From Planctomycetaceae bacterium (GTDB lineage Bacteria; Planctomycetota; Planctomycetia; Planctomycetales; Planctomycetaceae), in assembly GCA_027489895.1 (NCBI GenBank), contig JAIXZD010000096.1, positions 1-38,450 of the forward strand: 38,450 nt of DNA. The letters run 5' to 3'. Below, piece after piece: positions 12,597 to 21,825 of the stretch. Under the pieces are notes generated by a model, which was not told the DNA's origin, did not search any database, and saw nothing but the letters and a program-made list of their open reading frames with translations. Position 1 is the first letter of the stretch; every line of letters starts with the position of its first letter. A program made the translations under genes and the position numbers.

Positions 12597-12648
12597 GATA
12601 GCGATTCGGAGGATGGTTCCCGGTTCCCCTCGCTGACGCGTCGGGCTA
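12597..12648 (+). repeat. 52-bp direct repeat, left copy, with REP1 at 12627-12648
   Basis: Matches 13328-13379 at 48 of 52 positions in the same orientation, 731 bases apart. Its last 22 bases are a REP sequence (CCCTCGCTGACGCG, then TCGGGCTA) that can fold as CCC-T-CGC-TGAC-GCG-TC-GGG. The TAG stop of the transposase gene is formed by the last three bases of this REP on the minus strand. Confidence 0.85.
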
Positions 12649-13143
12649 TGGAGGTTGCCCGATTCTTCGAACGCCTGCTTTGTTCCTGTCCTGGCCTTCC
12701 CTTGTATAGACGATCGCGCATTCGAGCGCGGAATCGTCGAACAATACTCGAACGCTGCCTCGGCCTGACCACCAATTCGAACGCGACGCGTCATGCCGTT
12801 CTTTGAGCCGCCGCGTGGTCCACGCCTTGAGATCGCCCCTGACCTTATCAGGAGGTGACATCGAAGCGCTCACGACCACGTGGACGTGGTTAGACCGGCA
12901 ATTCACCGCCAGAAGCGTCCAACCTCGCCGCACGCAGGTCTCCTCGATCTGCTCTTCGACCGTCCGCCTCTGGTCGGCATCGAGTAGACACTTCGATTCC
13001 GACATTCGTCCTGCCGCTTCCAGCTCCAACATCAACTCGGGTTCCTGCCAGCCGCCCCGATACTCGACCCACCCGCGTTCGTCTCCGGGCAACCATGTCC
13101 CATAGGTAGTCCACGTGAGAAAGTATGCCAGCGCGTCTCCCAT
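12646..13143 (-). CDS. REP-associated tyrosine transposase (IS200/Y1 HUH family)
   Basis: 165 residues. It is a Y1-transposase-fold endonuclease: it opens with YFLTWTTYGTWLPGDERGW, the metal-binding HUH pair is His86 and His88 in NHVHVVV, and the candidate catalytic tyrosine is Tyr146 in AIVYTREGQ. RAYTs process REP palindromes as single-stranded DNA. The ATG at 13143 is preferred: GGAGGGGA lies about nine bases upstream; a GTG three codons earlier is also possible but too close to that site. The gene is bracketed by the 52-bp repeat and REP copies at 12627, 13181 and 13358. Its stop codon lies inside REP1. No passenger gene is present. The transposase looks intact. Confidence 0.88.
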   Translation of the reverse strand: MGDALAYFLTWTTYGTWLPGDERGWVEYRGGWQEPELMLELEAAGRMSESKCLLDADQRRTVEEQIEETCVRRGWTLLAVNCRSNHVHVVVSASMSPPDKVRGDLKAWTTRRLKERHDASRSNWWSGRGSVRVLFDDSALECAIVYTREGQDRNKAGVRRIGQPP

Positions 13144-13180
13144 CGTCGCCACTCCCCTCCGATCGATGCGGGAAGGACTT

Positions 13181-15561: not shown

Positions 15562-16509
15562 ATGATCGAGTACAACCGCAAAAGCTGGTGGAAGAACACG
15601 TTTTCGTGGCACGGTACCGCCGTGCGCATCGCTGGCCGGCGCATCCTCATCATTATCGTCTATGCGCTTCTCGTGCAGGCGATTTATGAGGGGGCGGTCG
15701 ACTTTGGGCTGTTCGACGACAAGCACTTCCTGCAGTTGGATCCGCTGGGGCACACGTTTGTGGGGTCGCTGGTCGGATTTCTGATCGTGTTCCGGATGAA
15801 CGCGTCAAACGCCCGGTATTGGGAAGGGCGATCGCACTGGGGGATGATCATCAACACGTCGCGGAACCTGGTCCGCGTGGGTTGCGAGCAGACAGATGGC
15901 GGGGAAGAACTGGCCGGGCTGGTGACGGGCTATGTCATCTGCCTGAGACGGTCTCTGCAGGGGCAGCGCGACATGCTCGAGGCGGACGTGTATCTCTCCG
16001 GAGATGTCTGTCGCGAGGCGATCCGGTTTGGCAATCCGCCGACGGGTGTCGCGGCGGCGATCTCGGAATGGATTCACCGGTACCGCCGGAACGGCCAACT
16101 CGAACCGCAGATGGTCCGCCACATGGAACAACTGCTGAGCCTGCTGGTTGATGCGCAGGGAGGCTGCGAAAAGATTCAAAAGACGCCGATGCCGTTCGCG
16201 TATGTGGTCATGCTCAAGCAGATTATTCTCGCGTATCTGTTAACGCTGCCGCTGGTGCTCTGCGAACGCTGTGGCTGGTGGACGCCTTTGCTGGTGGGGA
16301 TTGTGTCGCTGGGCCTCCTGGGGATGGAAGAGGCCAGCGTCGAAATTGAAGACCCGTTCGGAACGGAAGAGAACTGCCTGAACCTGGAGGCCCTGACGCT
16401 GACGATTGCCCGCGATACCGGTCAGTTGGCTGATTTTGCGGAACGACGACGCAGGGCCGCCCTGGCCATTCCGCAACCGGTGGTCGCCCAGGCGGCGATT
16501 CCGCAATAA
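15562..16509 (+). CDS. Bestrophin-family anion channel
   Basis: 315 residues. Diagnostic parts are present: a membrane helix near 29-47; FVGSLVGFLIVFRMNASNARYWEGRSHWG (written here only in name; positions about 67-94) matching the family's fixed-loop signature; a TPMPFAYVVMLKQ motif near 208-220; and GMEEASVEIEDPFGTEENC near 254-272, which corresponds to the conserved E-x-E-D-P-F-G element. Family members form pentameric channels; in plants and algae they pass chloride and, notably, bicarbonate, while prokaryotic members studied include cation-preferring ones. Selectivity cannot be told from sequence. The ATG at 15562 was chosen because the residues upstream are not family-like. The carbonic anhydrase gene follows after 69 bases on the same strand. 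Confidence 0.9.
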   Translation: MIEYNRKSWWKNTFSWHGTAVRIAGRRILIIIVYALLVQAIYEGAVDFGLFDDKHFLQLDPLGHTFVGSLVGFLIVFRMNASNARYWEGRSHWGMIINTSRNLVRVGCEQTDGGEELAGLVTGYVICLRRSLQGQRDMLEADVYLSGDVCREAIRFGNPPTGVAAAISEWIHRYRRNGQLEPQMVRHMEQLLSLLVDAQGGCEKIQKTPMPFAYVVMLKQIILAYLLTLPLVLCERCGWWTPLLVGIVSLGLLGMEEASVEIEDPFGTEENCLNLEALTLTIARDTGQLADFAERRRRAALAIPQPVVAQAAIPQ

Positions 16510-16578
16510 GGGCGGGTGGTCGATTGTGTTGTGTTCGAACTGGACTGCTGCCGCTGTCATCTCAAATCGGAACGAATC

Positions 16579-17481
16579 ATGGATGTGATCTACCGCTACG
16601 ACCCGTATGCCCCACTGGCTCCGCGGAGTTTCCCCACGCCAGAAGCGGCGCGGAAGGAACTGCTCTCGGGGAATGACCGCTTTGCGGGGATCGTTCGCAA
16701 GATGCAGGAGCGAACGCTGGGGCAAGGGACCCACGCCCCGATCATTATCCCGGTCTGTCCGATGTCGATGGGACTGCCGCTCTACGAAGGGGCGATGCCG
16801 AACCAGGCTCCGTTCGCGGTGGTGCTCGGCTGCTCGGACGCCCGCGTGCCGACAGAGGCCGTGTTCGATCAATCGTTCAACGACCTGTTCGTCCTGCGGA
16901 TCGCGGGGAACGTCCTGGGGTCGGAGTGCCTGGGGTCGCTGCACTTTGCGGTCCGGAATCTTGGTTCGCAATTGCAGATCGTCGTGGTGCTGGGCCACTC
17001 GAAATGCGGTGCGGTGACCGCCGCCGTCGATGCCTACCTGTCTCCCGACGACTTCTCGGACATTGCCTTCACCTTCTCGCTGCGGTCGCTGGTCGATCAG
17101 ATTCAGATTGCCGTGCGTGGCGCGGCCCGGGCGATTGAAAAGCGGGCCGGGGCCGACTTCACCAGCAACCCCGAATATCGCTCGGTGCTGGTGACCGTCG
17201 CGGTGTTCGTGAATGCGGCGATCTCGGCCCTCGAACTGCGACGGGAACTCGATCGCATCGGCGGCAAGACGCCGGAAGTGATGTTTGGCGTGTACGATTT
17301 CTCGACGCTGTCGGTGCAAAGTCACCCGGTCGCCGCGGGCGACAAGCGTCCGGCCCGTCTCCAGGCGGGACCGAGAAATGCCGAGGAACTCTCCGCATAC
17401 ACGGCCGCCGTGGTCGATCAGCTCTTTTCCCTCAATCCAGATGCCATGCTCGATCTGTGCCGGATGACGGTCAAGGTTTAG
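16579..17481 (+). CDS. Beta-class carbonic anhydrase
   Basis: 300 residues, longer than the common 200-230. The zinc ligands are Cys85, His140 and Cys143 (CSDARV and GHSKCGAV), and the Asp87-Arg88 dyad is intact, so it should interconvert CO2 and bicarbonate. Extra length lies in an N-terminal arm (residues 1-75) and a stretch between the zinc motif and the C-terminal strand (VMFGVYDFSTLSV). No signal peptide is visible, so it is likely cytoplasmic. The ATG at 16579 follows a weak GGAA. It comes right after the bestrophin gene (69-base gap) and is followed by a PH-like protein (75-base gap), which suggests one transcript. Confidence 0.93.
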   Translation: MDVIYRYDPYAPLAPRSFPTPEAARKELLSGNDRFAGIVRKMQERTLGQGTHAPIIIPVCPMSMGLPLYEGAMPNQAPFAVVLGCSDARVPTEAVFDQSFNDLFVLRIAGNVLGSECLGSLHFAVRNLGSQLQIVVVLGHSKCGAVTAAVDAYLSPDDFSDIAFTFSLRSLVDQIQIAVRGAARAIEKRAGADFTSNPEYRSVLVTVAVFVNAAISALELRRELDRIGGKTPEVMFGVYDFSTLSVQSHPVAAGDKRPARLQAGPRNAEELSAYTAAVVDQLFSLNPDAMLDLCRMTVKV

Positions 17482-17556: not shown

Positions 17557-18081
17557 GTGTCTGCTGCTCCCGCCCCCAGCCCCACGCTCCTGTGCGTGGT
17601 GTATCCGTCGATTGCCCGTTGGCCTGTCGGGCGCTGGCTGGGGCGGCTGTACGAATCGATCCCGCTGCGGGTCGCGGGGACGAAGCTCTCCTATCTGCTC
17701 TACTGCCTGCCGACCGCGCCGCTGGTGGCGAGTCTGTATGGGTTGCAGAAAGTGATTGGCGAGAAGTACGTGTTGACGACGTCAGCCGTTGAGCGACGGC
17801 GGTCCATCGGAAATGCATTGGTCGAGGCAGTGCCTCTGGACGACGTTGGAACCGTGGAAGTGATCCGGTCGGAGTGGGAGTCGCTGTATCGTACGGGGAC
17901 CGTTCTGGTTCGATCGGCGGAAGGGACTTTACGACTCACCTGCGCAGGGGTGCCCGATCCGGATGCGTTCGCCGGCACGATTCGGGATGCGGTGGTGGCC
18001 CGGCGGACCGTAACCGCGAGTTTGGCGCACCTCGCTCGGCGGCAAGCCGGCGAAACGCTGTTGGCGACCCCGGCGAGTTAG
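17557..18081 (+). CDS. PH-like (bPH2) domain membrane protein, unknown function
   Basis: 174 residues from a GTG start; an alternative TTG at 17491 would add 22 residues, and neither has a good ribosome site. One hydrophobic helix (about 48-68, LSYLLYCLPTAPLVASLYGL) is followed by a beta-rich domain, YVLTTSAVERRRSIG, then VEVIRSEWESLY and LRLTCAGVPDPDAFAGTIRDAV, which reads like the bacterial PH-like YdbS/bPH2 fold. Such domains bind lipid or protein partners; the exact role is unknown. It lies 75 bases after the carbonic anhydrase on the same strand and may be part of that operon. Confidence 0.75.
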   Translation: MSAAPAPSPTLLCVVYPSIARWPVGRWLGRLYESIPLRVAGTKLSYLLYCLPTAPLVASLYGLQKVIGEKYVLTTSAVERRRSIGNALVEAVPLDDVGTVEVIRSEWESLYRTGTVLVRSAEGTLRLTCAGVPDPDAFAGTIRDAVVARRTVTASLAHLARRQAGETLLATPAS

Positions 18082-19245: not shown

Positions 19246-19287
19246 ATGACTGCCCAGACTGGAACGATGACTGCCCAGACTGGAACG
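19246..19287 (+). repeat. 21-bp tandem duplication at the kinase start
   Basis: The block ATGACTGCCCAGACTGGAAC plus G occurs twice in a row, giving two in-frame start codons and the peptide MTAQTGT twice. It is a simple perfect tandem duplication. Confidence 0.9.
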
Positions 19288-21825
19288 GGGACGCGGAATT
19301 CGCCGGCCGAGGCTCTCAAGAGTCGGCTGCTTTGCGCGGGGAGGTTGCTTTCCACTCTCCTGGGGCGTCCGCTTCTGGTCATGATTCCCATCGCCGCGCT
19401 GTTTGCGGTTGCCGGCCTGTTCCTGATCACCCGCCTGGCCGAGCAACAGGTCGCCGCGCAGTTGCGATCGGGGCTGGATTCCACCTCGTTCACGCTGACC
19501 AATTGGGCGGCAGATCGACAGAGCGACGCGATTGTACAGTCCCGGCAACACGCGGTTCGAACTCACATCGACCAGTTGCGCCTGGAACAGGAAGCCGATG
19601 TCGTCACCCCCGGCGCAAGCGCTGCCTGCGAAGCCCTCAGACGTGAGATGGAAGTCTTCTGCCGGGCCTACGGCTACAACAGCTTCTTCGTGACCGACCT
19701 ACGCGGCGCGGTGCTTGCCGCTCCCGGAACGGACAGTCTGTCGGGCCATGTTCCTGGACCAGGCTCCGCGGCCTGGGAAAAGTTGCAGGCGGGCCAGGCG
19801 GCACTGCTGGCCCCCGTGGCCTGCCCGATTCCCCTCGCTGGTCTCGAGGGGCAATCCCTTCAGGGCCAGCCGATTCTGTTGATCGCCGCACCGATCATGG
19901 ACGAACGCGGCGAAGAACCGGTGGCGATTCTGTATCTCACCCAGTCTCCAGATCAGGGATTTTCCAGGATTCTGGAGGTCGGGCGACTGGGTGAAACCGG
20001 AGAAACCTATGCGTTCAATCGCGCCGGTTTCATGATCTCCAACAGTCGCTTCGTGGCGGATCTCAGCCGCCTGGGGCTGTTGCCCGTCGGGAAAGGCACC
20101 AGCACAACGCTGCGCGTGCGGGTGAGGGATCCCGAAGTAGATCTGACCCGAAATCCCCTGGCTGCCATTCGCGCGGGTGTCGACCGTCCGCTCACCCGCA
20201 TGTGCGCCAGCGCGATTTACGGCAACTCGGGCCTGGACAGTTGGGGCTACAACGACTATCGCGGCGTCCCTGTGGTAGGAGCCTGGCGCTGGTTCCCCGA
20301 GTTCGGCTTCGGCATCGCCTTCGAAATCGATGTCGCCGAAGCATATGCCTCGACCCGCGCCAACTATCTCGTGTTTGGACTGCTGGTGGTGCCCATTCTG
20401 ATCGGCACTGGAATCAGCGAATGGAATGCCGGTCGCAGCCGGCAGTCCGAGCGTCAGCAGGCGCTGTTGCTTGGACAACTGGAAAAGCAGGCCCGTCAGC
20501 TCGAAGCGAGAAATGACCAGCTCCGCGATGCGTACCGCACCGCGAACGCGGCCAATGAAGCGAAGAGCCTGTTTCTGGCCAACATGAGTCACGAGATTCG
20601 AACGCCGCTCAACTCGGTCCTGGGTTTCGTGGACATCCTGCGAGTCGAAGGCGAGACCCTCGACCGGGCCAGCCAGCTCGAGCTGCTCGACATCGTCCAT
20701 CGCAGCGGAACCCACCTGCTGGGGCTGATCAACGACATTCTCGATCTGTCCAAGATCGAAGCCGGAAAGCTGCAGACCGATCGTCAGCCGACGAACGTCT
20801 CGGAACTGCTGGAAGAGATTGTCTCGACGATGGGCGCCCGGGCGCAGGAAAAGGGCCTGGCACTCAGCCTCGTCTACGACACGGACCTGCCTGCCCAGAT
20901 CTCGACCGATGCGCAGCGTCTGAAACAGGTGCTCATCAATCTGGTTGGTAATGCGGTCAAGTTTACCTCGAAAGGGAGCGTCGCGATCCATGTGGCCGCC
21001 CCATCGCCCGCCGGACAGGGGCTGATTGAGTTTCGAATCGCGGATACCGGTTGCGGCCTTACTCCCGAGGGAATCGCCAAGCTGTTCCAGCCGTTCTCGC
21101 AGGCCGATGGCAGCGTCACCCGACAGTTTGGTGGGACGGGCCTGGGGCTGGCCATCAGCAAGCAATTGTGCGAAGCCCTGGGAGGAACGGTCACCGTCCA
21201 GAGCCAGGCCAACGTGGGCAGTTGCTTCACGGCGACTGTCGCGATGGGAGACCTCACCAGTATTCCCTGGGGTGCTCCGCGCCGCGAGCGGGTCCGCAGT
21301 GGAACAACGGAGGGACCGATCGAGTCGCCGCTGTTGGTCGGTCGCCGCATTCTGATCGTTGATGACGGTGACACGAACCGCCAGTTGCTCAGTCTGTTTC
21401 TCAAGCGGGCCGGCTGCGAAGTGTTCGAGGCCGTCGACGGCCTCGACGCCCTGCGGGAAGCGAGACTCCTCCGTCCCGATGCGATTATGATGGATATGCA
21501 GATGCCCCGCCTCGACGGTTATGCGACGACTCGGCGCTTAAGGGCGGCGGGATATCGCGGGGCGGTGGTCGCCTGCTCGGCGGATGCGATGCGCGAAAAC
21601 ATTGCCCGGATGAAATCGTGTGGATGCGATACGTTTGTTCCCAAACCGATCGAATATGCCGTCCTTATCGAACAGTTGGAGGACGCGCTCATCCAGCACG
21701 GTTTCTCCGGTTCGAACGATCGCAGCGGACCAACGACCGGCGCGGCTGCCCCATCAGATTCGATCGCCGTGATCGACACAGCCGGAGTGAGCGAACCCGC
21801 ACTTGCTGTTCAGGGCGTTCCATAG
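19246..21825 (+). CDS. Hybrid sensor histidine kinase with receiver domain
   Basis: 859 residues. A membrane helix near 42-64 and another near 373-391 enclose an extracytoplasmic sensor of about 300 residues with Cache-like features (GETYAFNRAGFMISNSRF, then WGYNDYRGVPVVGAWRWFPEFGFGIAFEID). Inside the cell: a coiled linker, HisKA with His449 in NMSHEIRTPLN, an ATPase domain with LINLVGNAVKF, DTGCGLTPEG and GGTGLGLAISK, then a receiver domain with VDDGDTNRQ, phosphoacceptor aspartate in MMDMQMPRLDG and lysine in FVPKPIEY. The kinase is therefore complete as a hybrid. A response-output partner is not in the window. The first 14 residues are a duplicated MTAQTGT; the second ATG (19267) could also be the start. 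The stimulus is unknown. Confidence 0.92.
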   Translation: MTAQTGTMTAQTGTGTRNSPAEALKSRLLCAGRLLSTLLGRPLLVMIPIAALFAVAGLFLITRLAEQQVAAQLRSGLDSTSFTLTNWAADRQSDAIVQSRQHAVRTHIDQLRLEQEADVVTPGASAACEALRREMEVFCRAYGYNSFFVTDLRGAVLAAPGTDSLSGHVPGPGSAAWEKLQAGQAALLAPVACPIPLAGLEGQSLQGQPILLIAAPIMDERGEEPVAILYLTQSPDQGFSRILEVGRLGETGETYAFNRAGFMISNSRFVADLSRLGLLPVGKGTSTTLRVRVRDPEVDLTRNPLAAIRAGVDRPLTRMCASAIYGNSGLDSWGYNDYRGVPVVGAWRWFPEFGFGIAFEIDVAEAYASTRANYLVFGLLVVPILIGTGISEWNAGRSRQSERQQALLLGQLEKQARQLEARNDQLRDAYRTANAANEAKSLFLANMSHEIRTPLNSVLGFVDILRVEGETLDRASQLELLDIVHRSGTHLLGLINDILDLSKIEAGKLQTDRQPTNVSELLEEIVSTMGARAQEKGLALSLVYDTDLPAQISTDAQRLKQVLINLVGNAVKFTSKGSVAIHVAAPSPAGQGLIEFRIADTGCGLTPEGIAKLFQPFSQADGSVTRQFGGTGLGLAISKQLCEALGGTVTVQSQANVGSCFTATVAMGDLTSIPWGAPRRERVRSGTTEGPIESPLLVGRRILIVDDGDTNRQLLSLFLKRAGCEVFEAVDGLDALREARLLRPDAIMMDMQMPRLDGYATTRRLRAAGYRGAVVACSADAMRENIARMKSCGCDTFVPKPIEYAVLIEQLEDALIQHGFSGSNDRSGPTTGAAAPSDSIAVIDTAGVSEPALAVQGVP

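Follow-up and report, generated by a model that had tools for sequence, protein, structure and literature searches.

Genes at the locus

The window, i.e. the whole stretch of 38,450 nucleotides analysed here, comes from a Planctomycetaceae bacterium. It carries a bestrophin-family gene followed by a beta-carbonic anhydrase (CA) gene on the same strand. The features of this region are as follows.

15562 to 16509, plus strand: bestrophin-family channel gene (PF25539), ATG to stop, 315 amino acids; predicted neck Ser69/Phe73/Phe77
16510 to 16578, plus strand: intergenic gap of 69 bp, without a terminator-like site
16579 to 17481, plus strand: beta-CA gene, ATG to stop, 300 amino acids; zinc ligands Cys85, His140 and Cys143, dyad Asp87/Arg89
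17557 to 18081, plus strand: gene of a small protein with a hydrophobic segment and a sub-threshold bacterial PH domain; GTG start, 75 bases past the CA stop

The first-pass annotation had described an intact bestrophin gene followed, after 69 bases and in the same direction, by an intact beta-CA gene. Both descriptions agree with the present analysis. The Pfam Bestrophin_2 profile (PF25539) covers residues 1–285 of the first protein (E value of 2.5e-64; 218 bits against a curated cut-off of 27). The AF2 fold, predicted as a single chain, has a mean pLDDT of 92.7, and its top PDB matches are the KpBest entries (TM-scores of 0.76–0.78, normalised by the query). By profile and predicted fold, the channel is a member of the bestrophin family. 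It should be mentioned that the PF01062 profile gave zero matches in the window's own genome because bacterial bestrophins belong to PF25539; this result is not evidence of absence.

The beta-CA retains all of the catalytic residues: Cys85, His140, and Cys143, which bind zinc, and the Asp87–Arg89 dyad are invariant in the alignment of CA homologues (A2). The Pro_CA profile (PF00484) matches with an E value of 7e-23 (82 bits against 25.7), the match covering only profile positions 1–104 of 156. The protein has a Planctomycetes-type N-terminal segment (MDVIYRYDP...) and a long C-terminal region, and its homologues share the start methionine (MD[VLI]IYR). The AF2 model, built from two sequences only, is poor (pLDDT of 36.9). 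No export signal was seen on inspection of the sequence, and the enzyme is apparently cytoplasmic. The planctomycete subfamily having the N-terminal [VLI]IYR[YF]DP motif is broad, and most of its members lack an adjoining bestrophin (L048, L047, and other f2 and f3 loci).

The gene downstream of the CA had been annotated as a PH-like membrane protein after 75 bases. The spacing is as described; the match to bPH_2, however, is below threshold (19.4 bits; curated cut-off of 22), so that the "PH-like" label is tentative, and the gene does not accompany the pair in relatives. It is possibly an operon member in the window, whereas a place in a conserved unit is ruled out, as no relative was present among the ORFs of related loci. 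Elsewhere in the window are a short, REP-associated transposase of the IS200-like type (Y1_Tnp; 12646–13152, minus strand) and a hybrid histidine kinase having HisKA, HATPase, and receiver domains with a weak Cache match (19246–21825, plus strand).

Recurrence of the bestrophin–CA pair

The bestrophin clade of the window is referred to as type A, and its pair has the order bestrophin followed by CA. Among 59 related genomes, in which the queries used here detected a bestrophin in 37 and a CA in 47, eight same-strand adjacent pairs were observed. Random placement gives 0.024; this value is an expectation and not a formal probability, and related genomes are not independent. In the survey of 298 genomes of the class, the type-A pair was found in eight genomes from five genera of the window's family: G000; G033, G110, and G290 (genus g34); G146 and G215 (g61); G025; and G024. 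Long single-contig assemblies are included. The two genes are separated by 9–69 bases in these pairs (9–67 bp in the seven relatives).

Adjacency is seen in 8 of the 20 same-family genomes, and in five of the eight genera, having a close type-A bestrophin. None of the gene families flanking the pair in the window recurs at the other seven loci with a pair, and the flanks of those loci are common to one another in part only. Type-A bestrophin and CA co-occur in all six genera of the family that have the bestrophin, compared with 8 of 37 overall. In genus g35 (eight genomes) and in g31, both genes are present but apart; genus g62 is without the type-A CA. The bestrophin of G034 retains some of the flanking genes seen in G033, yet has no adjoining CA. 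At least one gain or loss of the link between the two genes must therefore have occurred.

Two damaged loci should also be mentioned. In L044 (G030:C107), the bestrophin is split into two frames (121–890 and 989–1615) beside an intact-looking beta-CA, and this might be a decayed or misassembled pair. In L039 (G026:C65), the type-A CA at 585–1481 is interrupted by a TGA stop, and this genome has no full-length match to the type-A bestrophin.

Pairing in other bestrophin clades

A second clade, type B, is matched by its query in 87 of the 298 class genomes. Here, a different, canonical beta-CA directly precedes the bestrophin on the same strand, in the order CA–bestrophin (13 entries; families f1, f3, f5, f9, and f13). 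The same order was found in a third bestrophin clade, in G015. When mapped on the tree, the adjacent-CA state changes 14 times, gains and losses being pooled. Among ORF families within 2.5 kb of bestrophins, beta-CA is the commonest neighbour (27 of 203 loci; the next reaches 11).

In family f5, the gene order is CA–SulP–Usp–bestrophin, as annotated with Pfam for G040 (L045, 6163–10486); the spacing between CA and bestrophin in G068, G086, and G105 is equal to that in G040. In G061 (L266, 180–4528), the order is CA–SulP-STAS-CA fusion–bestrophin, the apparent fusion being called from the sequence and the CA match. The G040 and G061 operons are larger inorganic-carbon modules in Planctomycetes. 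On gene content, the f5 and G061 operons seem to place the channel with transporters of the kind tied to bicarbonate.

Outside the phylum, no beta-CA was found within 6 kb of a bestrophin in the non-planctomycete loci among 80 named loci, or within 1.5 kb in 37 further loci. The loci examined include bestrophins of Cyanobacteriota, Bacteroidota, Pseudomonadota, and Myxococcota. The locus L060 (BNCN01000013.1, titled Comamonas sp. KCTC 72670) comes from a 9.0-Mb genome that looks myxobacterial, others of its phylum often reaching 9–13 Mb and having several bestrophins, and its title may be mistaken. A pairing general to bacterial bestrophins is thus ruled out for these loci. Bestrophins were also present in the plasmid search.

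The two genes might adjoin by chance or by history, with no functional coupling. Many genomes do have both genes apart, and pairing is the minority state. Nevertheless, this explanation is very improbable: the number of pairs far exceeds the expectation, the pairs vary in gene order, in CA subfamily, and in bestrophin clade, and the flanks in the window bear no relation to those around the other pairs. The first-pass annotation had taken the two genes as a unit from their adjacency in one genome, a proposal that would have been refuted had relatives not kept the pairing. The pairing instead recurs across genera, is kept despite differing flanks, and appears again with other subfamilies.

Neck residues and ion selectivity

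The neck of the window's channel is assigned by alignment as Ser69, Phe73, and Phe77 (SFF). The complete IFF neck of the eukaryotic proteins is absent, the first residue being Ser instead of Ile, and the aperture position is occupied by a polar residue (Gln). The middle residue, Phe73, corresponds to Phe80 of hBest1 and Ile66 of KpBest. This Phe is found in 31 of 31 type-A sequences but in only 4 of 172 others; at this position, Leu, Ile, or Val is found in most of the remaining bacterial proteins, many of the type-B partners of CA among them.

KpBest has an IIF neck and is a Na+ channel, and the review cited here names no other close bacterial homologue that has been characterised; the I66F replacement moves the selectivity of KpBest towards Cl-, and HCO3- passes through human bestrophins (PMC8496536). 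The middle Phe of the type-A proteins may therefore favour anion passage. An alternative is that the window's channel conducts Na+ or other cations as KpBest does, and that the two genes share an operon because they are regulated together when pH or salt causes stress. The properties of KpBest, the aliphatic middle residue of most other bacterial members, and the Usp gene within some operons are consistent with this. The type-A proteins, however, uniformly carry the very residue that favours Cl- once introduced into KpBest, and what recurs next to bestrophins is specifically CA, with SulP in some of the operons. A cation channel is thus considered unlikely, although more probable than the other alternatives.

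Comparison with known systems

KpBest of Klebsiella pneumoniae (PDB 4wd7 and 4wd8) has the same fold and belongs to the same bacterial family as the window's bestrophin, but the identity is approximately 24% and the necks differ as described above. The CA shares its active-site core (residues ~70–153) with the Rv3588c-type beta-CAs (PDB 1ym3 and 2a5v); it differs in the added N-terminal segment and in the diverged C-terminal half, which was not aligned by phmmer.

A linkage between CA and SulP transporters is well established. The SulP/BicA-type bicarbonate transporters resemble the system in the window in that an anion transporter is genetically linked to a beta-CA, and in some relatives they share an operon with the bestrophin. 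They belong, however, to another transporter family and are secondary-active, whereas a bestrophin is a channel. The SulP content of the window's own genome is a single 345-bp fragment at a contig end.

In Chlamydomonas, the thylakoid bestrophins BST1-3 have been proposed to work with the carbonic anhydrase CAH3 on bicarbonate (PMC6708349). A bestrophin-family channel that is proposed to act with a carbonic anhydrase on bicarbonate is common to both cases. The algal system is eukaryotic and organellar: CAH3 lies across the membrane, in the lumen, and feeds RuBisCO, and the genes are not known to be paired. In the window, the genes are adjacent and the beta-CA is apparently on the cytoplasmic side. 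The RuBisCO large-chain profile (PF00016) gave no match in the window's own genome, which is 93% complete, while control genomes gave matches. With no RuBisCO match and one fragmentary SulP in the genome, there is little support for a CO2-concentrating role of the algal kind.

A related possibility is bicarbonate uptake, in which the channel would admit external bicarbonate and the CA would make CO2 or balance the pool for carboxylating enzymes. The algal precedent, together with the SulP-type transporters and SulP–CA fusions of some operons, points in this direction. Besides the missing RuBisCO match, the apparently cytoplasmic position of the CA argues against it, and an anion cannot be accumulated through a passive channel when the membrane potential is inside-negative; the thylakoid arrangement is the opposite. 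Uptake is accordingly quite improbable. The first-pass annotation had drawn the algal analogy, and this part of it fits poorly: no export signal was seen in the CA, and a passive channel in a respiring bacterium would release bicarbonate.

Proposed mechanism

The reading that we favour, at about even odds, is that the pair forms a bicarbonate/anion unit, in which the channel would be co-expressed with the cytoplasmic CA and would work as a pH/bicarbonate valve. The common strand, the short gaps (9–69 bp), and the lack of a terminator-like site between bestrophin and CA are consistent with an operon. Co-transcription, anion selectivity, and bicarbonate flux are the parts of this reading that we infer.

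A pentameric bestrophin in the cytoplasmic membrane would pass bicarbonate, and probably chloride too. On the inner side of the membrane, the beta-CA would convert CO2 and bicarbonate rapidly. For a passive anion channel, an inside-negative membrane favours bicarbonate exit. Export is the most likely direction for this reason, so that bicarbonate would leave the cell upon opening of the channel. The CA might then refill the bicarbonate from respiratory CO2, with one proton staying behind. In this way, the unit would be a regulated valve through which the cell adjusts the pH and bicarbonate of its cytoplasm, for instance in alkaline surroundings or at high bicarbonate; it would not serve in carbon-concentrating uptake. 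Several observations speak against an anion unit: the Na+ selectivity of KpBest, the Ser at the first neck position, the Gln at the aperture, the minority state of the pairing, and its absence outside Planctomycetota in the loci examined.

A more far-reaching version can be put forward tentatively. Planctomycete bestrophins might be dedicated bicarbonate channels that were paired with cytoplasmic beta-CAs repeatedly and independently. Each pair would then be a bacterial valve that releases bicarbonate in pH/CO2 homeostasis, with the clade-specific neck Phe as the determinant of anion selectivity.

Implications

The association of a bestrophin with a CA is already a known idea in algae. In the open-licence literature, subscription papers being outside the scope of the search, no report of a bacterial bestrophin–CA pairing was found, nor were papers on the physiological role of bacterial bestrophins. 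Within the literature searched, the recurrent bacterial gene pair appears to be new.

Bestrophins occur widely in bacteria and have been well studied in structural terms; the link to CA suggests a part in bicarbonate/CO2 handling. The recurrence of this link, with SulP in some relatives, makes such a role directly testable in culturable planctomycetes, and the clade-specific neck residue is a candidate for testing anion selectivity. The pair seems to be a natural bacterial counterpart to the partnership proposed in algae. If the valve reading is true, it would provide a physiological role for prokaryotic bestrophins.
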